NCBI GenBank assembly: GCA_937982115.1
Contig: CALJNE010000030.1
Coordinates: forward strand, 1-49,818
DNA: 49,818 nucleotides
Direction: 5' to 3'
DNA from: an uncultured Bacteroidales bacterium
GTDB taxonomy: Bacteria > Bacteroidota > Bacteroidia > Bacteroidales > ML635J-15
The notes below the pieces were generated by a model. The model was given only the letters and a program-made list of their open reading frames with translations, was not told where the DNA came from and did no database searches. Numbering within the stretch: position 1 is the first letter of the stretch; every line of letters starts with the position of its first letter. Both the position numbers and the translations under genes were made by a program. Positions 13,235 to 24,777 of the stretch are shown piece by piece.

Positions 13235-13267
13235 GGCTGTCTCAAAATTTGACAGCCCCTTTTTTTA
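13235..13267 (+). terminator. Rho-independent terminator shared by convergent genes
   Basis: A 7-bp stem (GGCTGTC at 13235-13241 with GACAGCC at 13251-13257) is followed by a CC and a run of Ts on the plus strand. It lies 17 bp past the pepD stop. Read on the other strand it follows the ferritin-like gene that ends the redox operon, so it may serve both. Confidence 0.85.
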
Positions 13268-13720
13268 ATTCTCTCTCAAAATCACTTCGTCATATTCTAT
13301 CTCAAACATAAGTTTATGCTTTGATTCTTCCTGTGCCAACGAAAGCAACAAGTTTACCAATTCGGGATTTGAGGTTTGAGAAGCTAACTTAGTGTAAAGT
13401 TTAAAAGCAGCTTTCTCACGTTTCATTGCCAGAATCAAAGCATCCTGATAACTCATGTCCGGAGAAGGTTCTGTTCGCTCCACATATTCCGAAATATTTA
13501 ACTCCCGCACTTTTTCTTCTCCCAGTGTGAAAATTTTTTCTTCTTTTACTTTTGTTAGTTTTGCTTTATGTTTTATTTCTTCCTCAACAAAACGTAAAAA
13601 AGTCTTTTTCATTTCTGATGACTTTGCTCTATCAGATAACTCCTTGTAAAAATCAATGGATTTTTGTTCCATGTCAATGGCAAAATCCAGTATATCATCA
13701 ACTGTTTTAAACTCTCTCAT
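13265..13720 (-). CDS. Ferritin-like / rubrerythrin-type diiron protein
   Basis: The 151-residue, all-helical protein has two tandem half-motifs typical of ferritin-like diiron carriers. The first is E18 in FAIDMEQKSIDFYKEL with E48-x-x-H51 in EEEIKHK. The second is the Glu in MKREKAAFKLYTKL with EESKHKLMFE. It lacks the C-terminal rubredoxin domain of classical rubrerythrin. Proteins of this type handle peroxide or iron in anaerobes; the specific reaction here is inferred. The ATG overlaps the last 14 bp of the large oxidoreductase gene, so the two are probably translationally coupled. It is the last gene of the four-gene redox operon and ends at the shared terminator. Confidence 0.85.
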   Translation of the reverse strand: MREFKTVDDILDFAIDMEQKSIDFYKELSDRAKSSEMKKTFLRFVEEEIKHKAKLTKVKEEKIFTLGEEKVRELNISEYVERTEPSPDMSYQDALILAMKREKAAFKLYTKLASQTSNPELVNLLLSLAQEESKHKLMFEIEYDEVILREN

Positions 13721-16700
13721 ATTCTAATTGTTTTTTTAGTTTTGACTTAAAATCATTTTCAAAATTGTTACTGATATAATCTGCTGCATTTTCAAACAGT
13801 TTAATGTTTACAGATTCTTCAGTAATTCTTAATTGATCTTTGATATCTACAACATCATTGAATTGTTTAAGAAATTCAGATTTAACATCATCTATTGAAC
13901 CCAATCCGTTTACTCCCGCAAGTTTAAGTATTGATAATAATTGACCTACATTACAATATTCAAACGGAGGATTCGATGCTTTTTCAAATTCCAGAATTTG
14001 TCTCTGAGTGTTTGTAAATGATCCGCCGGTTTCGTAAGGTAAAGAAGCCGGTAAAATCAAATTAGCTTTTTGAGCTGTTTCAGTTATAAAATAATCCTGT
14101 ACCATTATAAATTCAGCTTCATTAAACCATTGGTTTACATCGGTTTTATTTATGGCCGTACCTAACGGATCTTCACCAAAGATAAACCACGAAGAAACTT
14201 TTCCGCATTTAATTTTCTCAAGAAGTTTTGTTTCGCCGTAATTATTTATAACATTAAATTTAGCTGTGCCTTCAACAATTCCCATATTAAATAAACCTTC
14301 GGAATTGTTCTTTTCTTTTAAGGAAATTATTCCGGCAGCGGTTTTACCAAGTTTTCCGGTTAAAATTGCAAGGTTTCTGATTTCAGAGCAAGTTTCGGCA
14401 CTTAAATTTTTCTCACTGAAAATTATTACAGAATTGTGATTATTGTTATATTCAGTTACAAAATATTCAATAATATCTTCACTTACTCCAGCTTTTTTAA
14501 TCAACTCCTCAAAGTTTTGAGCTAAAATATAATTACGATACTCAATGAAACTATCTTTGTAGTGCTGATCAAGATAAATTTGATTTTGCAAATTATGTGA
14601 AAGAATATAGTAATTAGCAGCTTTGATAAAGTGATAATACGAAGAAATTACTAAAGTTTTGTCAGCCTTTTTAGAAACAGAATTATTTTTATCCTCTGTT
14701 ATTAGAACTACAGGAACATTTTTTTTGAATTGATGATTAAATACCATATATCCAACTATTGGATAATCATAATTAATTTCTGTTCCAAGGATAAAAATTC
14801 TTTCTGTTTTTGGTATTTCATTAAAAGCTAAATTATTAAGACTGTTTTCAGCAAAAGCATTTCCTCTACCGAGATAAGAGAAAGATGACATATTTTTTTC
14901 TCCATCAGCAATTTCATATAATTTAGAGATTAAAAACATTTCTTCATTAGATAGTCTTGCTCCGGCAAACAAAGCTTTTTCGCCGGCTGACTTTTCTTTT
15001 AACTTGTTATATATAATGTTAAAAGCCTCATCAAAAGATATATTTTTCCATTTGCCGTTTTCTTTGATCATGGGTTGAGTTATTCGGTTTTTATCATTTA
15101 TATAATTGTAACCGAATTTTGCTTTTGCACAAATGTTTGAATCCTGATTTATTTGACCATAAGCCCCATTAACTCTCCAAACAAAATTTTTCTTTACCAG
15201 GTATTCCAATTCACAACCAACCGAACAATAATTACATATTGAATTTATAGGTTCAGTTTTAACCGGTCCCGGTTTAAATGTAACATTTTCAGAAATTGCA
15301 GCAGTAGGACAGGCCGATATACACATTCCACAGGATTCACAATCTGTTTCCAGCAATGATTTTCCAAGACTTGGAGCAACAAATGTATCAAATCCGCGAT
15401 TTACCAGCCCCAGAGCATAAGCACCAACAACTTCGCTGCAAATCCTTACACAACGAGCACATAATATACACTTGTTATTGTCAATTTCTATATAGGGATG
15501 ATCAAATTTTACATCAAACTGTTTAAACTCTCCTTTCAAATTTTCCTGAGAAGCTTGATATGCTGTAGCATGTTTTTTCAAATCACAGGTATAATATTCA
15601 ACACACCCGCACTCAAAACATCTTGATGCCTCCTGCACAGCTACCTCATCATTTTCGTAACCTAATTCCACCTCAACGAAATTAAGTCGCTTGTTGGGAG
15701 ATAAAGTAGGCATTTCATGTCGCTTTTGAGAAACATATTTTGGTTTATAGTCTTCCGGAACCTGCTTTTTAAAATTATCTTTTTTGCTGATAAATTCGTA
15801 ATTTTCGACTTTTATTTCCTGACCAGTGAGGAATTGATGACAACTCAAAGCAGCTCTGCGAGCTTGTTGTATAGCTTCGATAACTGTGGCAGGACCTTTA
15901 ACAGCATCACCACAAGCAAAAATCTTTGGATTTCCGGTTTGTAAGGTTTGTGGATTTACGTCGAGATCCCCCCATTTATTTAACGCAACTCTTCCATTTT
16001 CTGAAAAGTTATTAATATCATCTATAAACGGCGCTACAGTTTTCTGTCCTATTGCAGCAAGAATATAATCTACCTGAATATCGAAATCGCTACCTTCAAC
16101 CGGAACCGGTCTTCTACGCCCTGAAGCATCCGGTTCGCCTAATTCCATTTTAAGGCAGGTAATAGATTTAACTTTACCTTCTTCATCTTTATTTATTCTT
16201 TTAGGTGCTGTTAGAAACATATATTCAACACCTTCGAGTTTTGACTCGTGAATTTCTATTGGATTTGCCGGCATCTCTTTTTCGGTACGGCGGTACAAAA
16301 CATAAACCTTATCGGCATGGCAACGTATCGAAGTTCGACAGCAATCCATAGCCGTATTACCGCCACCAATTACTGCAACTGTTTTGCCTCTGAAGTCATA
16401 TCTTTGACCGGTGATTTCCATATTGCGTAAAAACTCTACACCTCCAAAAACATTTATGGCATCATCCCCTTCACAACCCACAGGTGTGCTTCCCTGCGAA
16501 CCAATGGCAAGAATTACTGCATCGTAATTATCTTTAAGATTTTTATAACTAAGATTTTCCCCAAGTTTTTTATTATAATGAATTTGAGATAATCCTAATT
16601 CAAGTATAGCATTAACTTCTTTATCTATAATTTCATTAGGCAAACGATATTCAGGGATACCATATCTTAACCAGCCTCCCGGTTTTGAGTTAGCCTCGAA

Positions 16701-17369
16701 AATATCGCAATAATGACCTTGAAGTTGTAAGAACCATGCAGCCGATAATCCTCCAGGTCCGGCACCAATTATAGCAACACGTTTTCCTGATGCAGGTTTT
16801 GGAGTAGGCCTATATCTATCAGCGGATTCCAGATCTTTATCACTTGCAAATCTTTTGAGATAATCTATTCCTACACCGGCACCTTCTTCCATTAAATTTC
16901 GACGACAAGCCACCTCGCATGGTCTAACGCATACACGCCCACAAACTGCCGGCAATGGATTAACTTCTTTTATCAAAGCTACTGCTTCGCTATAAAGGCC
17001 TTTTTCAATCAACGAAATATATCCCTGTACATCAACTCCGGCCGGACAGGTTTGTTTACACGGAGCAACGCAATCTGCATAGTGATTACTTACCAACAAA
17101 TTCAAAGCTGTTTGTCTGGCTTTGTATATTTTTTCGTTATCCGTAGTGATTTTCATCCCCTCGGTGATCTTTGTTGAACATGAAGGCTGGAGTCCTCTCA
17201 TACCTTCAATTTCGACTACACAAACATAACAAGATGAATACGGTTCAAGGCGAGGATCATGGCATAATGTAGGAATTTCTATTCCGGATCTGGAAGCTAA
17301 TTCCAAAACTGATTCTCCCTCGTATCCTATTACGGGTTTGCCGTTTAATATAACATTTATCTGGTTCAT
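13707..17369 (-). CDS. GltD-NuoG fusion: Fe-S flavoprotein with degenerate molybdopterin domain
   Basis: The 1220-residue protein is a chain of redox modules. Residues 1-80 are a NuoG-type [2Fe-2S] ferredoxin (C36, C47, C50, C64). A His-Cys cluster motif follows (H96, C100, C104, C108). Residues about 110-515 are a GltD/NfnB-like FAD and NADPH module with VAIIGAGPGGLSAAW and VAVIGGGNTAMDCCR dinucleotide folds. A cysteine-rich linker has C584, C587 and C589. Two [4Fe-4S] sites come next (C634/637/640/644 and C677/680/683/687). From about 710 there is a molybdopterin-oxidoreductase-like domain with its own [4Fe-4S] site (C712, C715, C719, C747). That domain has no Cys or Sec where formate dehydrogenases carry the active-site residue (about 825-840). 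It also seems to lack the C-terminal cofactor-binding domain, so it looks structural, as in NuoG. With the NuoF and NuoE genes directly upstream, it should exchange electrons between NAD(H), NADP(H) and ferredoxin. It is soluble, with no signal or membrane segment. Confidence 0.85.
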   Translation of the reverse strand: MNQINVILNGKPVIGYEGESVLELASRSGIEIPTLCHDPRLEPYSSCYVCVVEIEGMRGLQPSCSTKITEGMKITTDNEKIYKARQTALNLLVSNHYADCVAPCKQTCPAGVDVQGYISLIEKGLYSEAVALIKEVNPLPAVCGRVCVRPCEVACRRNLMEEGAGVGIDYLKRFASDKDLESADRYRPTPKPASGKRVAIIGAGPGGLSAAWFLQLQGHYCDIFEANSKPGGWLRYGIPEYRLPNEIIDKEVNAILELGLSQIHYNKKLGENLSYKNLKDNYDAVILAIGSQGSTPVGCEGDDAINVFGGVEFLRNMEITGQRYDFRGKTVAVIGGGNTAMDCCRTSIRCHADKVYVLYRRTEKEMPANPIEIHESKLEGVEYMFLTAPKRINKDEEGKVKSITCLKMELGEPDASGRRRPVPVEGSDFDIQVDYILAAIGQKTVAPFIDDINNFSENGRVALNKWGDLDVNPQTLQTGNPKIFACGDAVKGPATVIEAIQQARRAALSCHQFLTGQEIKVENYEFISKKDNFKKQVPEDYKPKYVSQKRHEMPTLSPNKRLNFVEVELGYENDEVAVQEASRCFECGCVEYYTCDLKKHATAYQASQENLKGEFKQFDVKFDHPYIEIDNNKCILCARCVRICSEVVGAYALGLVNRGFDTFVAPSLGKSLLETDCESCGMCISACPTAAISENVTFKPGPVKTEPINSICNYCSVGCELEYLVKKNFVWRVNGAYGQINQDSNICAKAKFGYNYINDKNRITQPMIKENGKWKNISFDEAFNIIYNKLKEKSAGEKALFAGARLSNEEMFLISKLYEIADGEKNMSSFSYLGRGNAFAENSLNNLAFNEIPKTERIFILGTEINYDYPIVGYMVFNHQFKKNVPVVLITEDKNNSVSKKADKTLVISSYYHFIKAANYYILSHNLQNQIYLDQHYKDSFIEYRNYILAQNFEELIKKAGVSEDIIEYFVTEYNNNHNSVIIFSEKNLSAETCSEIRNLAILTGKLGKTAAGIISLKEKNNSEGLFNMGIVEGTAKFNVINNYGETKLLEKIKCGKVSSWFIFGEDPLGTAINKTDVNQWFNEAEFIMVQDYFITETAQKANLILPASLPYETGGSFTNTQRQILEFEKASNPPFEYCNVGQLLSILKLAGVNGLGSIDDVKSEFLKQFNDVVDIKDQLRITEESVNIKLFENAADYISNNFENDFKSKLKKQLEYERV

Positions 17370-17380
17370 AACTTTTACTT

Positions 17381-19159
17381 TTACGAAAGATTAATAGCCT
17401 CAAACTTACACTTGCTGAAGCAAACACCACATTTAATACACACTTCCTGATCTATATAATGCACCTGCTTTCTTTCTCCCGATATTGCATTTACTGGACA
17501 ATTTTTTGCACATACGGTACAACCTGTACATTTTTCGGGATTTACAGTATATGTAATAAGTTTTTTACAAGTCTTTGCCGGGCATTTTTTATCGCGAATA
17601 TGAGCCTCATACTCGTTTCTGAAATATTTTATCGTTGTAAGTACCGGATTTGGAGCTGTTTGACCAAGACCGCAAAGCGAACTGTCCTTGATCTGATATG
17701 CTAATTCTTCAAGCAGTTCAATATCGCCTTCTTTGCCTTCTCCTTCACAAATTCTGGTAAGTATTTCCAGCATTCGTTTGGTTCCTATACGACAGAAAGT
17801 ACATTTTCCGCAAGACTCTTTTTGCGTAAAATCCAAAAAGAATCGAGCCATATCAACCATACATGTAGTTTCATCCATTACAACCATACCACCGGACCCC
17901 ATAATGGCACCGGTAGCTAAAATGGAATCATAATCTACGGGTGTTTCTGCTAAATAATCAGGGATGCAACCTCCGGAAGGTCCACCTAATTGAACAGCTT
18001 TAAATTTTTTATCCCCCTGAATACCACCACCAAGTTTGAAAATTATGTCTTTAATGGATATTCCCATCGGGACCTCCACAAGTCCGCCTCGTTTTATTTT
18101 TCCAGTTAAGGCAAAAACTTTTGTACCTTTTGATTTTTCGGTTCCGTACTTATTAAATGATTCTGCTCCGTTTAAAACAATATATGGAACATTGGCAAAG
18201 GTTTCAACGTTGTTAATATTGGTAGGTTTTTTCCATAATCCCGACACTGCCGGAAATGGAGGACGCTTGCGTGGCATACCTCTGCGACCTTCGACTGAGG
18301 CCATCAAAGCAGTTTCTTCACCGCAAACAAAAGCTCCGGCACCTTCTTTAACATAAATATCAAAGTTCCAGCCTTTTTTACCGTAAATATCTTTGCCTAA
18401 ATATCCTTTAGCACGAGCCTGTTCTATTGCAATATTCAAACGTTTAATTGCTAGTGGATATTCGGCTCTACAATAGATTACTCCCTGAGTAGCTCCTATT
18501 GCATAAGCAGCAATGGTCATACCTTCAAGAACTGCATGTGGATCGCCCTCGAGTAACGAACGATCCATAAATGCTCCGGGATCACCTTCGTCGGCATTAC
18601 AAATTATATATTTTTCGTCGGATTTGCTGTTGAATGCAAATTTCCATTTTAATCCAGTCGGGAATCCACCTCCTCCCCTGCCACGTAAACCACTGTCAAT
18701 TATTGTTTGTATAACCGTTTCCTGTGAAAGGTTTTCATTTAATATTTTTTTAACTGCCAAATAACCTCCGGCATTTTCGTATTCTTCAATTACCTCAGGA
18801 TTTATTACTCCACAATTTCGTAAAGCAATTTTCACCTGATTTTTCCAGTAAGAGTCGTCTTCGTTTTCGAAAAGGTCGGTTTTTACAATATATTCTTTAA
18901 CAGGCTCTCCGGTTTTAATGTGCTTTTCGATTATTTCGGTAATTTTAAACTCGTCAATTTCGCCGTACAAATAAGAACCTGTATAATCAATAATTTCAAC
19001 GAGCGGTTCCCGATAGCACATCCCGACACAACCTGTTTTTGTAAGTTCAAAATTTAATTTTTCGTGTTCTTTAACAGCTAAAATTTTATCATAAACTTTG
19101 TTAGCTCCTGCTGCAATTCCGCAACTGGCTAAACCGACAAGAACCTTCATTTGTTCCAT
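17381..19159 (-). CDS. NuoF/HydB-like NADH-binding flavoprotein subunit
   Basis: The 592-residue protein has an N-terminal thioredoxin-like domain with C13, C44 and C48. The NuoF core follows, with the FMN/NADH loop GLRGRGGGGFPTGLKW (157-172), NADEGDPGAFMDR, and the [4Fe-4S] site C450, C453, C456 and C496 (ESCGKCTFCRIG, LCGLGQ). A C-terminal two-cluster ferredoxin domain has C544/547/550/554 and C574/577/580/584. This three-part layout is that of HydB of bifurcating hydrogenases and of related soluble complexes, and it differs from respiratory NuoF, which lacks both extensions. It should oxidise or reduce NAD(H) with FMN. It sits 14 bp after the NuoE-like gene and 11 bp before the fusion gene, clearly in one operon. 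No [FeFe]-hydrogenase subunit is encoded here. Confidence 0.93.
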   Translation of the reverse strand: MEQMKVLVGLASCGIAAGANKVYDKILAVKEHEKLNFELTKTGCVGMCYREPLVEIIDYTGSYLYGEIDEFKITEIIEKHIKTGEPVKEYIVKTDLFENEDDSYWKNQVKIALRNCGVINPEVIEEYENAGGYLAVKKILNENLSQETVIQTIIDSGLRGRGGGGFPTGLKWKFAFNSKSDEKYIICNADEGDPGAFMDRSLLEGDPHAVLEGMTIAAYAIGATQGVIYCRAEYPLAIKRLNIAIEQARAKGYLGKDIYGKKGWNFDIYVKEGAGAFVCGEETALMASVEGRRGMPRKRPPFPAVSGLWKKPTNINNVETFANVPYIVLNGAESFNKYGTEKSKGTKVFALTGKIKRGGLVEVPMGISIKDIIFKLGGGIQGDKKFKAVQLGGPSGGCIPDYLAETPVDYDSILATGAIMGSGGMVVMDETTCMVDMARFFLDFTQKESCGKCTFCRIGTKRMLEILTRICEGEGKEGDIELLEELAYQIKDSSLCGLGQTAPNPVLTTIKYFRNEYEAHIRDKKCPAKTCKKLITYTVNPEKCTGCTVCAKNCPVNAISGERKQVHYIDQEVCIKCGVCFSKCKFEAINLS

Positions 19160-19173
19160 AATAAAAAAATGAA

Positions 19174-19692
19174 TTAATTATTGTGTTTTAACTGATATTC
19201 CTTAATAACATTAACAGCCGTTTTGCCGCTGAGTTTTCCGAAAACTTCGTCATCAATCATTAGTACAGGAGCCAGAGAACAACATCCCAGGCAAGCTACT
19301 GATTCCACAGTGTAAAATCCATCGGGAGTAGTTTCTCCATCTGCGATTTTAAGTGCTTCGAGAATACTTTCGGTAATTATATTAGCTCCCTGTACGTGAC
19401 AGGCTGTACCGTGACATACTTTTACAATATGTTTTCCTACGGGTTTTAATCTAAACTGTGCATAAAAAGTAGCAACTCCGTAAAGTTCGCTTTTTTTAAT
19501 TCCTGTTTTTTCACTAATTAAATCAAAAGCTTTTTCAGGCAAATAACCATATATTTGTTGTACTGCCTGCAAAACAGGAATAGTTATTCCTTTTTTGTTT
19601 TTAAACTTTTCAATCACACTGTCGAGTTGAGATAAATCAACTTCTTCGTGAATATTTTCACGATTTTCTAATGCAATTCTTTGAATACGCAT
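19174..19692 (-). CDS. NuoE/HydC-like [2Fe-2S] thioredoxin-fold subunit
   Basis: The 172-residue protein has the four-helix N-terminal part of NuoE (TIPVLQAVQQIYGYLPEKAF). Its thioredoxin-like [2Fe-2S] domain has ligands C93 and C98 (CHGTACH) and C134 and C138 (CLGCC). GATFYAQF-like sequence (GVATFYAQF) precedes the cluster, as in NuoE and HydC. It would relay electrons next to the FMN of the NuoF-like partner. It is the first gene of the operon. The gap to gdhA upstream is only 65 bp and contains the gdhA terminator, so the operon promoter is either within that gap or relies on read-through; no strong promoter was seen (one-mismatch TATTTTCG). Confidence 0.93.
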   Translation of the reverse strand: MRIQRIALENRENIHEEVDLSQLDSVIEKFKNKKGITIPVLQAVQQIYGYLPEKAFDLISEKTGIKKSELYGVATFYAQFRLKPVGKHIVKVCHGTACHVQGANIITESILEALKIADGETTPDGFYTVESVACLGCCSLAPVLMIDDEVFGKLSGKTAVNVIKEYQLKHNN

Positions 19693-19717: not shown

Positions 19718-19748
19718 GAAAAAAAGAGGACAGAAACTGCCCTCTTTT
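19718..19748 (-). terminator. gdhA terminator
   Basis: On the minus strand AAAAGAGG and its partner CCTCTTTT (19741-19748 with 19722-19729) form an 8-bp stem, with an extra CAG/CTG pairing in the loop, followed by a T-rich tract. It begins 10 bp past the gdhA stop and separates gdhA from the redox operon. Confidence 0.85.
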
Positions 19749-21312: not shown

Positions 21313-24300
21313 ATGAATCTGAACGAAAATAATAACCAGAAAATCAACTACGATAAACTGTTAAAAGAAAATCAAGAAAGATTAAAGGAATTAAATTGCA
21401 TTAACAAAACCACAGAATTAATAAAACAAGGACTTAGCATTAGCGAAACTTTGCAAAAAATTTGCAATTTCATGACTAATGCTTATCAATATCCCGAATA
21501 TACTGTTTGCTCAATTGAATACGATGGCAAAAAGTATGTGTCTAATTTTTTTCTCGAAACTAAATGGAAGCAAAGTGCCGAATTCACCACAGCCGAAGGA
21601 AACAAAGGACAAATTAATGTTTATTATACTAAAGAATTTCCAAATGAAAGTGATGAAGGTCCATTCCTTATTGAAGAAAGGAACTTAATTAATAATATTG
21701 CAACGCTAATTTCTAACTTCATCAACAGCTCGAAAATAAAAGAAATTATTAATTACGAAGAGCCAAAAATTGATATTACAAATATTCAGCAGTCTGCACA
21801 ACAATACAGCAGACAACTATTGCAAAGATTTTTGAACCGTGACTATTACGAAAGAGATATTTATCATGATCTGATGCCATTTAAAGTAAAAGAAATTTTA
21901 CTTATCGCAAACCTTTACGATGCTTTCAGTATTGAAAAAGAAGGGAGATTTACCGAACATATACTTGGAGAATATTATAAATTAAACCTCACATCATTGC
22001 CTCGAATTACCGGATGTTCAAGCGAAAACGAAGCTTTGTATTTATTGAAACATCGTCATTTTGATTTGATAATCATTATGATGGGCTCAGATAAAAAATT
22101 CCCATTTGCTGTTTGCGAAAAAATAAAAGAACATCATAATTACATATCCACATATTTGCTCCTCAACAACGATAACGATATTCAATATCTTAAAAAATTC
22201 AGTTTTTATAAATCAAGCTTCGACAAAGTGTTTGTATGGAATGGAGACTCAAAGATATTTTTTGCAATGGTAAAACTGCTGGAGGATAAAGTTAATATGG
22301 AAAATGATGCAAAACTTGGAGTTGTTCAGGCTGTTCTGATTGTTGAGGATTCTCCTAAATATTACAGCAGATATTTACCTGCAATATACAGTGCTATTCT
22401 GGAACAAACACAAAAACTTATTGAAGAAGTAAATACCGATGAATTATATAAAGTCTTGAAATTACGAGCCAGACCAAAAGTTCTACATGCCTGCACCTAC
22501 GAAGAAGCTATACATTATTATAATAGGTATCAAGATATCATTGTCTGTATTCTAACTGATATAAGATTTCCAAAAGACCAAAAGGAAGACTCAGGAGCTG
22601 GTTTTGAGCTTGTTAAATACATTCAATCGCACAATCCTCACATTCCTGTTTTGATGCAATCATCTGATCAAGAAAACATAAAAAAAGCCTCAGAATTAGG
22701 AGCAATGTTTCTTAATAAACTTTCCGACAGTTTGATTCAGGATATTAAATATTTTATTTCTTTCCATCTGGGATTCGGGAATTTTGTGTTCAGATCTAAT
22801 GAAGGACAGCAACTTGCTGTGGCTAAAAACCTCAAAGAATTTGAATCATTATTAAACCAAATTCCGGAAGATTCTTTAACTTTTCATGCCTTAAAAAATC
22901 ATTTCTCTCTATGGATGATGGCTAGAGGTGAAATTGAAATTGCACGAAAAATAAAACCATATAAAATAACAGACTTTAAAAATGCCGGAGAAATTAGGGA
23001 ATTCCTGTTAAAAATTATTCAGAAACATAAAATTGAAAAAGCAAAAGGAAAAATTGTTCAGTTCGATCCTGACATTGTTAAGGAAGAAAGTAACATCGTT
23101 ATGCTTAACAGCGGAGCGTTAGGAGGCAAAGGAAGAGGACTGGCTTTTGTTAACACCTTAATCTATAACTACGATTTTTCAAATGTTATTCCCGGAATTA
23201 TCATTCGCACTCCCGCAACAAGTATAATAGGTACCGACGAGTTTGATATTTTCATGCAAAAAAACAAACTCTATCAGGTTATACATGAAGAAAGCGATTA
23301 CACTATCATTAAATCCAAATTTGTAAATGCAAGTCTATCTTTTGAACTCAGCAAAAAACTCAAAGCCTTTATTAAGTCAATTAAAAAGCCTCTTGCCATA
23401 AGGTCTTCGAGTTTATTGGAAGACTCATTAAGCCAACCTTTTTCGGGAGTTTTCGAGACTTATTTACTTCCCAATAATCATCCTGACGACAATGTACGTC
23501 TGAAACAACTCGAAACTGCGATAAAGTTAGTATATGCCTCCGTTTTTGCTCCAAATGCAAGATTGTACTTCGAAGCCATAAATTACCGGATCGAAGAAGA
23601 GAAAATGGCAGTGGTTATCCAGGAAGTAGTTGGAAAGCAACATCAGGACTATTATTATCCGCATATTAGCGGAACGGCTCAATCACATAATTTTTACCCT
23701 GTAGGTTATATGAAACCTGAGGAAGGTTTTGCCGTAATTGCCTTAGGTTTAGGGCAATATGTTGTTGAAGGTGAAAAAACATATAGATTCTCTCCTCAAT
23801 ATCCAAAAATTGACATTACAAGCCTCAAAGACCTTGTAAACAATTCGCAATCCGAATTTTATGCAATAAATTTAAAAAGGACTAATCCGGACTTACTTGA
23901 AGGTGAAAATGCCGGGCTAAGTCGCCTTGATTTGTATGATGCTGAAATGCACGGAACTTTAAAACATCTTGCATCGACTTACGATCCATACAACGACACA
24001 ATAGAAGCAGGAATTAATAAAACAGGTCCGAGAGTTATAAACTTTGCCGACATATTAAAATACGAATATATTCCACTGTCACAAACCATACAAGTTGTAC
24101 TCTGCATTGTTAAGGAAGCCATGGGAACTCCGGTTGAAATAGAATTTGCCGTAACCCTCGACAAAGATCCGCCTTACAATCTTCCATCTTTTTATCTTTT
24201 ACAAATTAAACCGCTCCTTGGAAGTCAAAGTGATTTTAAAGTTGAGTTTGAAAAGTATGCAAAAGAAAATACTGTTTTAAAATCATCGAAAAGCATGGGA

Positions 24301-24777
24301 AATGGAAAAATCGAAGGAATACAGGATGTTATTTTTGTTAAGCCCGAAGCCTTCGACAACCTTAAAACCGAAGAAATGTCCGAAGAAATAGATAGAATTA
24401 ACCGTGAATTTTTAAAATCAAATCGCAAGTATATATTAATAGGTCCAGGAAGATGGGGTTCTCGAGATAAGTTTATTGGAATTCCTGTAGTTTGGTCGCA
24501 GATTTCGGCCGCTAAAGTAATTGTAGAAATGGAATTACCTAATTTCCCGCTCGATGCCTCTTTAGGTTCGCATTTTTTTCATAACGTAACCGCTATGAGC
24601 GTCGGATATTTTTCGGTAAAACAGTTTAATGATTTTGACTTTATCAATTGGGATATTCTAAATAATGCCGAAGTAGTAAAATCTTTTAAATATTTCAAAC
24701 ACGTAAAATTCAATAATCCGCTTACAGTTCTTATGGATGGAAGTCAACAAAAAGCAATTATAATAAACACAGATTAA
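21313..24777 (+). CDS. GAF / receiver / PEP-synthase-type ATP-grasp protein
   Basis: The 1154-residue protein starts with a coiled coil and a GAF-like domain (about 25-140). A degenerate receiver-like fold (about 192-325) and then a fuller receiver domain (about 338-485) follow, the latter with VLIVEDSPKYY and a possible phospho-acceptor D416 in ILTDIRFP. From about 595 it has the ATP-grasp (PPDK_N) domain of phosphoenolpyruvate synthase/pyruvate phosphate dikinase: LGGKGRGLAFVNTL and RSSSLLEDS (697-705) with the glycine-rich FSGVFETYLLP. The phosphohistidine swivel domain and the PEP/pyruvate TIM barrel of real PEP synthase are absent. Instead there is a conserved-looking C-terminal part with GPGRWGSRDKFIGIPVVW. 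So it is probably not a PEP synthase but may phosphorylate or bind a partner under signal control. It is a single transcription unit, divergent from gdhA. The function is unknown. Confidence 0.8.
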   Translation: MNLNENNNQKINYDKLLKENQERLKELNCINKTTELIKQGLSISETLQKICNFMTNAYQYPEYTVCSIEYDGKKYVSNFFLETKWKQSAEFTTAEGNKGQINVYYTKEFPNESDEGPFLIEERNLINNIATLISNFINSSKIKEIINYEEPKIDITNIQQSAQQYSRQLLQRFLNRDYYERDIYHDLMPFKVKEILLIANLYDAFSIEKEGRFTEHILGEYYKLNLTSLPRITGCSSENEALYLLKHRHFDLIIIMMGSDKKFPFAVCEKIKEHHNYISTYLLLNNDNDIQYLKKFSFYKSSFDKVFVWNGDSKIFFAMVKLLEDKVNMENDAKLGVVQAVLIVEDSPKYYSRYLPAIYSAILEQTQKLIEEVNTDELYKVLKLRARPKVLHACTYEEAIHYYNRYQDIIVCILTDIRFPKDQKEDSGAGFELVKYIQSHNPHIPVLMQSSDQENIKKASELGAMFLNKLSDSLIQDIKYFISFHLGFGNFVFRSNEGQQLAVAKNLKEFESLLNQIPEDSLTFHALKNHFSLWMMARGEIEIARKIKPYKITDFKNAGEIREFLLKIIQKHKIEKAKGKIVQFDPDIVKEESNIVMLNSGALGGKGRGLAFVNTLIYNYDFSNVIPGIIIRTPATSIIGTDEFDIFMQKNKLYQVIHEESDYTIIKSKFVNASLSFELSKKLKAFIKSIKKPLAIRSSSLLEDSLSQPFSGVFETYLLPNNHPDDNVRLKQLETAIKLVYASVFAPNARLYFEAINYRIEEEKMAVVIQEVVGKQHQDYYYPHISGTAQSHNFYPVGYMKPEEGFAVIALGLGQYVVEGEKTYRFSPQYPKIDITSLKDLVNNSQSEFYAINLKRTNPDLLEGENAGLSRLDLYDAEMHGTLKHLASTYDPYNDTIEAGINKTGPRVINFADILKYEYIPLSQTIQVVLCIVKEAMGTPVEIEFAVTLDKDPPYNLPSFYLLQIKPLLGSQSDFKVEFEKYAKENTVLKSSKSMGNGKIEGIQDVIFVKPEAFDNLKTEEMSEEIDRINREFLKSNRKYILIGPGRWGSRDKFIGIPVVWSQISAAKVIVEMELPNFPLDASLGSHFFHNVTAMSVGYFSVKQFNDFDFINWDILNNAEVVKSFKYFKHVKFNNPLTVLMDGSQQKAIIINTD

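Follow-up and report, generated by a model that had tools for sequence, protein, structure and literature searches.

The Stn complex of Sporomusa ovata (8oh5, 8oh9), as described in passages of PMC7483475 and PMC10482914, is built from three subunits, the largest of which, StnC (1172 amino acids), joins NuoG, GltD, and an inactive FdhF-like domain in one chain. According to the latter, StnC carries six [4Fe-4S] clusters and one [2Fe-2S] cluster; the FdhF-like C-terminal part bears clusters C1 and C2, and the strictly conserved K170 is an unusual ligand of cluster C7. Nfn-ABC of Caldicellulosiruptor saccharolyticus (9bov, 9bp5) belongs to the same group, and passages of PMC9304861 predict a further arrangement, Rub-Bfu (proposed type 4 Bfu), in which a rubrerythrin gene lies in the operon of the BfuBC (StnAB) core, directly downstream of BfuB. 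Here we analyze a stnABC locus on a contig of 49,818 nucleotides (CALJNE010000030.1, referred to as the window) from an uncultured Bacteroidales bacterium whose draft genome of 2.69 Mb is 91% complete (~9% missing). The genes probably encode a Stn-type NADH-dependent ferredoxin:NADP+ oxidoreductase in an operon that ends with a rubrerythrin (rbr), which we propose to be a peroxide scavenger fed from the Stn-linked NADPH/ferredoxin pool. StnABC in Bacteroidetes is already known in outline; one sentence in the available text of PMC9304861 names this group among carriers of Nfn-Bfu. The one unexpected part is the conserved operon partner, which may be a variant worth testing.

Comparison with described Stn and Nfn-Bfu complexes

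For all three subunits, the top three matches in the PDB are, in order, 9bov, 8oh5, and 9n5u. The last of these, with chains NfnA/B/C, presumably represents the Nfn-Bfu enzyme from Thermococcus sibiricus. Residues 4–1168 of StnC align with 9bov_A (E 8e-229), residues 1–875 and 961–1168 with 8oh5_C (E 2e-222), and residues 4–818 with 9n5u_A. The gene set of a type 1 Bfu is complete: StnA is NuoE-like, StnB is HydB-like, and StnC is the GltD-NuoG fusion. Judged by sequence, the locus is a Stn (Nfn-Bfu) family complex of Bacteroidales. A first-pass annotation had likewise placed it nearest to Stn, among soluble bifurcating NAD(P)H-ferredoxin enzymes, and the three open reading frames that it reported, encoding NuoE-like, HydB/NuoF-like, and 1220-residue fusion proteins, are present on the minus strand. 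Its interval of 13265–19692 contains these subunits together with a fourth gene that went unmentioned, the rubrerythrin at 13720–13265.

No difference in architecture was seen between the window complex and C. saccharolyticus Nfn-ABC, the best match of all three subunits. 9n5u shares the subunits and the GltD-NuoG fusion; its 963-amino-acid chain has a partial C-terminal domain, and Cys residues of the second dicluster site, intact in the window, are missing from it in the alignment. S. ovata Stn has the same three subunits and the same order of StnC domains, including the inactive FdhF-like domain. The proposal that the fusion represents a distinct architecture was therefore abandoned, as NuoG, GltD, and the dead FdhF-like domain already stand in one chain in the S. 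ovata StnC of PMC10482914 and almost the entire window protein can be aligned with 9bov_A. K172 and R242 of the window correspond to K170 and R239 of S. ovata; in an alignment of 61 StnC rows, both residues are present wherever these columns are covered (60 rows). The surroundings differ: a passage of PMC7483475 places S. ovata stnABC after metVF and before pabAB, whereas the window has gdhA before and the rubrerythrin after. Rub-Bfu lacks BfuA/StnC. The window locus is not Rub-Bfu, because its StnC is present, complete, and situated between stnB and rbr.

Three further identities were rejected. None of five window proteins searched matched PF10418 (NfnA, DHODB-type), which speaks against NfnAB. 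PF02906 (H-cluster domain) had no match in StnC at E 0.001, which speaks against the bifurcating [FeFe] hydrogenase HydABC. FdhABC was set aside because StnC has neither a catalytic Cys/Sec nor full Mo/W cofactor domains. A formate dehydrogenase or hydrogenase function for the locus was dismissed on the same ground of a missing active site and because both enzymes are encoded elsewhere in the genome with NuoE/NuoF-type neighbors of their own; the first-pass annotation was right that the operon holds no catalytic subunit of either kind. The formate dehydrogenase-like protein (L041:838–3567) also has a MobA-like gene nearby, and the [FeFe] hydrogenase (PF02906; contig C51, L042:7829–9457) has its own HydB/HydC-like neighbors. 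StnC also matches PRK12775, a model named for GltD together with ferritin-type domains; the rubrerythrin has no match to it at 1e-3, and no claim is made from it. StnC has five matches in its own genome and, among the four listed, only StnC itself covers the GltD part.

The comparison set of named public contigs comprised 78 loci, the best of 583 confirmed stretches. Fifty of these (L043–L092) were used as StnC loci and four (L093–L096) as short StnC loci; the other 24 (L097–L120), which match only the GltD part and its neighborhood at 31–34% identity, were left out. Among the matches listed, the named StnC loci are mostly metagenome-assembled genomes (MAGs) of Bacteroidales. L047 is the contig of L034, and L090 is the contig of L035 (G034, a MAG named Paludibacter).

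Cofactor ligands of the three subunits

The core ligands of BfuBC can all be located in the sequence. StnA, aligned with 9bov_C and 8oh5_A, has by pattern the [2Fe-2S] Cys residues C93, C98, C134, and C138, with C137 as a fifth. StnB begins with a thioredoxin-like domain (C13, C44, and C48; the N-terminal [2Fe-2S] site) followed by the FMN (flavin mononucleotide)/NADH domain, an N3-type [4Fe-4S] site (C450, C453, C456, and C496), a linker containing H520, C526, and C531, and a C-terminal 2x[4Fe-4S] ferredoxin domain (C544–C584). These Cys residues are aligned in 9bov_B (E 1.9e-262) and 8oh5_B (E 2.5e-260) and are invariant across seven rows (alignment A3).

The Pfam domains of StnC are Fer2_4 (residues 3–78), Fer4_20 (99–181), Pyr_redox_2 of the GltD type (197–503), Fer4_Nqo3 (625–692), Molybdop_Fe4S4 (709–759), and Molybdopterin (762–1137). 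They bear out the NuoG-type ferredoxin and GltD module of the first-pass annotation. Its count of two [4Fe-4S] sites was too low: both dicluster sites are intact, and the Cys/His motifs align with those that hold the six [4Fe-4S] clusters and one [2Fe-2S] cluster of S. ovata. The assignment of residues to clusters in StnC is our own.

A rubredoxin-less rubrerythrin linked to stnC

The rbr product has the complete set of diiron ligands (E18, E48, H51, E102, E132, and H135) and no Cys. It thus contains the E..ExxH..E..ExxH four-helix diiron site of rubrerythrins and lacks their C-terminal rubredoxin domain; rubredoxin-less rubrerythrins are a known kind, as noted in the available part of PMC5114695. 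The six ligands are identical in all 27 StnC-linked copies, the window included, and none of the 27 has a CxxC. The predicted structure is a four-helix bundle with a mean predicted local distance difference test (pLDDT) score of 86, and the nearest protein by both sequence and fold is TM1526 (1vjx); the other best solved match is 2fzf of Pyrococcus furiosus. A second protein in the genome, encoded on another contig, matches PF02915 better.

The linkage to stnC was examined in four samples. Among nine StnC loci of the same order (sample a), rbr follows stnC in seven; L034 has a 141-amino-acid gene between the two and L035 a gap of 538 nucleotides. Sample b consisted of the named public contigs with at least 600 nucleotides downstream of stnC. 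Here rbr follows in 22 of 39 loci among the matches listed, at a distance of 30 nucleotides or less in 12 of the 22; the pairs come from Bacteroidota-labelled MAGs and one Ignavibacteria MAG, and none was found in the two Delongbacteria and two Chlorobi loci. In 41 relatives (sample c), a strong rubrerythrin match (E under 1e-30) occurs in eight of ten genomes with StnC vs one of 31 others (Fisher 4e-6). Within the genus, the figures are five of seven (G001 included on a partial StnC) vs none of 18.

Sample d covered 393 genomes of the order. Both genes were counted in 106 genomes, StnC only in 24, rubrerythrin only in 13, and neither in 250, so that the rubrerythrin accompanies StnC in 106 of 130 genomes vs 13 of 263 without it (Fisher 1.6e-56). 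Same-strand rbr lies within 1.5 kb downstream at 66 of 131 StnC loci (66 genomes). The rubrerythrin count takes 119 of 127 matching genomes, those with E under 1e-40, the eight weaker being dropped. StnC was counted by its C-terminal domain, in 130 of 144 matching genomes; seven of the 14 dropped have a stand-alone domain, and seven have weaker best matches (1e-60 to 4e-83), two of which are placed in formate dehydrogenase-like frames of 906–909 amino acids and five have no listed place. In a draw across the phylum, the rubrerythrin is rare, with three of 296 genomes at 1e-18: the window's own, G220 (next to StnC), and G327 (a weaker match, without a full-length StnC match).

Among the papers listed by full-text literature searches, which did not cover subscription papers or supplements, none other than that on Rub-Bfu pointed to a rubrerythrin tied to NfnAB or Stn. 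Passages of PMC7483475, PMC6405883, PMC4518329, and PMC4287179 describe no such link.

In 53 genomes of sample d, the rubrerythrin falls outside the 1.5 kb that follow StnC. It lies on the same strand beside glutamate dehydrogenase (GDH) in 15 of them, beside NfnA/NfnB in ten, beside a flavodiiron protein in four, at a contig edge in four, and beside other genes in 20, some with little upstream sequence (354 nucleotides in L181, 419 in L180). Left out of the 53 are L211, which is beside a StnC copy and counted among the 66, and the second G014 copy, L138. NfnAB was identified on L136 (TIGR01316 and PRK06222 over their cut-offs; PF10418) and the flavodiiron protein on L207 (PF19583 plus flavodoxin); remaining neighbors were assigned by BLAST against the L136 and L207 proteins and the window GDH. 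Three loci counted as NfnAB (L194, L197, and L203), from three families, have StnC upstream in the same row: StnC, a protein of ~297 amino acids, NfnA, NfnB, and rubrerythrin, all on one strand. This differs from acetogens, in which Stn and Nfn are almost mutually exclusive according to a passage of PMC7483475. The L203 copy of the ~297-amino-acid protein has no Pfam match.

A small protein that stands beside two different bifurcating transhydrogenases and GDH would more plausibly take its electrons from the NADPH/ferredoxin pool than from the surface of a single enzyme. It is tempting to speculate that Bacteroidota pair StnABC, and separately NfnAB, with a dedicated rubredoxin-less rubrerythrin that wires this pool, often together with NADP-GDH, to peroxide removal; we hold this generalization tentatively. 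If true, it would give the transhydrogenases a third outlet that protects clusters and spends surplus low-potential electrons when oxygen enters.

Proposed electron flow and alternatives

Gene content, motifs, sequence family, and conserved linkage are what was observed; from them we infer which reactions are catalyzed, in which direction, and how electrons reach the rubrerythrin. The steps of catalysis would be those published for S. ovata. NADPH would be handled at the flavin adenine dinucleotide (FAD) of the GltD module of StnC, and electrons would travel along the clusters of StnC until they reach the FMN of StnB, where StnA/StnB would couple them to NAD(H) and ferredoxin (Fd):

2 NADPH + NAD+ + Fdox <-> 2 NADP+ + NADH + Fdred

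The FdhF-like domain would be a noncatalytic structural remnant. The net direction is likely NADPH formation, because the 91%-complete genome has no match to PNTB (proton-translocating transhydrogenase) or G6PD_C (glucose-6-phosphate dehydrogenase), the two NADPH sources that were searched; the nearby NADP-GDH would be a consumer of NADPH. The enzyme thus suggests a route to NADPH that needs neither a proton-translocating transhydrogenase nor oxidative pentose phosphate entry, in an order in which Stn is common (130 of 393 genomes sampled). The rubrerythrin would scavenge peroxide with electrons received, directly or via ferredoxin, from the Stn-linked pool. The closest functional model, likened by description, is ferriperoxin of Hydrogenobacter thermophilus, also rubrerythrin-like and without a rubredoxin domain, which according to passages of PMC3317640 can reduce both organic hydroperoxides and hydrogen peroxide when supplied with NADPH and ferredoxin:NADP+ reductase. 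Stn, with its ferredoxin-facing and NADPH-facing sites, could replace that reductase. Through the linkage, a bifurcating transhydrogenase gains a partner that can be put to experiment.

Several observations weigh against one part or another of this explanation. No such rubrerythrin was found in 24 of the 130 StnC genomes, and G018, of the same genus, has only a weak match elsewhere in its genome; Stn therefore does not need the rubrerythrin. The pair is found in just 22 of the 39 named loci, and the Fisher statistic for the 393 genomes ignores common descent. No flavoprotein adjoins the rubrerythrin in the 15 genomes that have it beside GDH, and 24 of 119 genomes have another gene or a contig end next to it; these placements make a general oxidative-stress role possible. 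NADPH sources other than PNTB and G6PD_C may exist in the genome. Finally, position 114 of StnC is Val rather than the Cys of S. ovata. This residue was not counted as defining, because passages of PMC10482914 report that the position is not strictly conserved, with Val or Ile in two homologues.

The closeness of the genes could also mean that Stn includes the rubrerythrin as a fourth, physically bound subunit; such a complex would pass electrons to hydrogen peroxide or oxygen and would bridge the proposed Rub-Bfu (type 4) and Nfn-Bfu (type 1) enzymes. The overlapping stnC and rbr frames of the window, the short gaps in 12 of 22 named pairs, the persistent co-occurrence in 393 genomes, and the Rub-Bfu prediction with rubrerythrin directly downstream of BfuB (PMC9304861, in part) are consistent with such a complex. 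The 29 of 119 genomes that have the rubrerythrin beside GDH, NfnAB, or a flavodiiron protein, and the 24 StnC genomes without it, make it improbable. We consider it a more serious, yet still doubtful, alternative that the reaction runs in the catabolic direction, with NADPH derived from GDH passing through Stn to NADH and reduced ferredoxin and on to hydrogenase, formate dehydrogenase, and Rnf. Indeed, gdhA adjoins stnABC in the genus, and besides the [FeFe] hydrogenase and FdhABC-type genes the genome has two NQR2/RnfD-type genes. The failure to find PNTB or G6PD argues that NADPH is scarce and not in excess, however, and a strong terminator-like hairpin separates gdhA from stnA. Both directions may occur, the enzyme being reversible.

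Least probable, and in our view very unlikely, is a different function for the complex: NADPH dependence with some other terminal substrate, or formate-related chemistry in a C-terminal domain that is still active. The related NsoABC of Thermococcus bears a name that implies sulfur as such a substrate, and the FdhF-like fold is kept, formate dehydrogenases being the first Foldseek matches of a poor model (pLDDT 61, not relied on). Against these stand the missing catalytic residue and PF01568 domain, the loss of C1 ligands or of the whole domain in other StnC proteins (see below), and a passage of PMC7483475 that reports no formate oxidation by S. ovata Stn. NADPH formation by Stn, with the rubrerythrin drawing on the same pool, remains the reading we prefer.

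The FdhF-like domain

PF00384 and PF04879 match the C-terminal part of StnC; PF01568 (Molydop_binding) has no match in StnC at E 0.001. As a reference we used the genome's own formate dehydrogenase-like protein, which has PF01568 and in which we take the Cys of the motif RLCHA to mark the catalytic position. In alignment A1, this position is Gly in the window StnC and in seven of eight relatives and Gln in the eighth (L035), and alignment with the reference shows that the C-terminal cofactor-binding stretch is missing. On these sequence grounds the FdhF-like domain of the window StnC is catalytically dead, in keeping with the shortened molybdopterin-type domain lacking a catalytic residue that the first-pass annotation described; a full Mo/W site with an aligned catalytic residue was looked for in the domain and not found. 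The domain is 85% identical to that of the closest relative and 36–46% to those of the other seven, compared with 90% and 55–59% for whole StnC.

The [4Fe-4S] ligands of cluster C1 (C712, C715, C719, and C747) are present in the window. Three of the four (C712, C715, and C719) were scored across 54 StnC rows, and at least one is lost in 15; L047 lacks one and the other 14 rows lack all three. The losses require at least five changes on a StnC tree of 58 rows, 54 of them scored, which includes the C1 columns themselves and leaves out rows under 660 amino acids (L086, L092, and L096). A tie between the rubrerythrin and C1 was considered and rejected, since both C1 states occur with and without rbr. 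The FdhF-like domain is absent altogether from the StnC of L093–L095 (ruminant-gut Clostridia/Coriobacteriaceae), which measures 683–714 amino acids and is adjoined by StnA and StnB. In S. ovata, mutation of C1 or C2 ligands or deletion of the domain destroyed the complex, according to passages of PMC10482914; the natural losses bear on the question, raised there, of the purpose of C1 and C2. L093 also has a second StnAB-like set downstream.

Stand-alone homologues of the C-terminal domain, in frames of 527–567 amino acids, occur in at least seven of the 393 genomes: L183 (G029), L184 (G441), L185 (G465), L186 (G391), L187 (G481), L188 (G572), and L189 (G353). They have no GltD part, and no StnA or StnB was seen in the stretches fetched; none of the seven genomes has a strong rubrerythrin match. 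L016, the same gene as L183, keeps Cys residues of the C1 site.

Residues 114 and 143 near cluster C7

In comparing StnC proteins, we noticed a difference at two positions. S. ovata and C. saccharolyticus (9bov) have C114 and I143, unlike the window, which has V114 and C143. Val or Ile at 114 accompanies Cys143 in all 56 rows of the Bacteroidota/Delongbacteria/Chlorobi-type set, whereas the four short ruminant-gut rows (L093–L096) have Cys114/Ile143; 9n5u has Val at 114 and Leu at 143. C114 of S. ovata modulates C7, and its mutation halves activity (PMC10482914, in part). The sequence pattern is possibly a swap near C7; that Cys143 might take over the role of C114 is a guess.

Gene layout and neighboring genes

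The coordinates are collected in Table 1. The minus-strand order is gdhA, stnA, stnB, stnC, and rbr, with successive gaps of 65, 14, 11, and -14 nucleotides; the stnC and rbr frames share 14 nucleotides. The hairpin in the 65-nucleotide gap has a folding energy of -15.4 kcal/mol (z -5.6, 200 shuffles) and the longest stem of seven sites in a terminator scan, in which 5.7 were expected from shuffles. Because of this strong terminator-like hairpin, the operon proper is probably stnA-stnB-stnC-rbr, with gdhA an upstream linked neighbor, probably on a separate transcript; gdhA as first gene of one transcript with stnABC was rejected for the same reason. Directly upstream of stnA, gdhA is found in six of seven assessable loci among the nine of sample a (window included); the gene is broken into two frames in L039 (5081–6412; G011) and cut by the contig end in L040. 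GDH also directly precedes stnA in L043 and L081 among the matches listed for named loci.

Table 1 Features of the stnABC-rbr locus in the window
Feature	Product or description	Coordinates	Strand	Evidence
stnA	NuoE/HydC-like subunit, 172 aa (amino acids)	19174..19692	-	PF01257 E 1.3e-48; best PDB matches 9bov_C, 8oh5_A, 9n5u_C
stnB	HydB/NuoF-like bifurcating-core subunit, 592 aa	17381..19159	-	PF01512, PF10589, Fer4
stnC (P0001)	NuoG-GltD-FdhF-like, 1220 aa	13707..17369	-	Pfam domains; alignment with 9bov_A and 8oh5_C
stnC parts	N-terminal [2Fe-2S] domain, GltD/NfnB-like FAD-NADPH module, dicluster ferredoxin domain, inactive FdhF-like domain			
rbr (P0004)	Rubredoxin-less rubrerythrin / ferritin-like diiron protein, 151 aa	13265..13720	-	PF02915 E 2.3e-15
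gdhA	NADP-specific glutamate dehydrogenase, 451 aa	19758..21113	-	NF006929 790 bits (cut-off 536)
Hairpin	Terminator-like, between gdhA and stnA; 12 bp stem, T-rich tail	19722..19748	-	

Divergent from gdhA lies a gene for 1154 amino acids (21313–24777, plus strand), found in the same place in G014 (95%) and G018 (56%); by eye, its product has a receiver domain and a PEP/pyruvate-binding-type domain. The 141-amino-acid protein between stnC and rbr in L034 is zinc-ribbon-like. Two tandem rubrerythrin-family genes directly follow GDH in L213 (G617), L215 (G679), and L216 (G537). In genus g15 (L174, L177, L181, and L136), the rubrerythrin lies between a divergent nfnAB and a gene for 937 amino acids, the contig of L181 ending at the nfnAB side; the 937-amino-acid product is presumably a 2-oxoglutarate dehydrogenase E1, going by its N-terminus. 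Related proteins of ~290 amino acids are encoded beside NfnAB at L203:2775–3665, which has no NCBIfam match either, and at L136:624–1505, which by eye starts with a CxxC zinc-ribbon-like stretch.

Contig C51 of the window's own genome encodes two further proteins. One (L042:5829–7829; 667 amino acids) combines [FeFe] hydrogenase-like, Fe-S, and histidine kinase parts beside the HydABC-type genes and is possibly a sensory hydrogenase. The other (L123:3–3233; 1076 amino acids) has, by eye, an N-terminal [2Fe-2S] domain, an FAD/NAD oxidoreductase domain, [4Fe-4S] motifs, and a second FAD domain.

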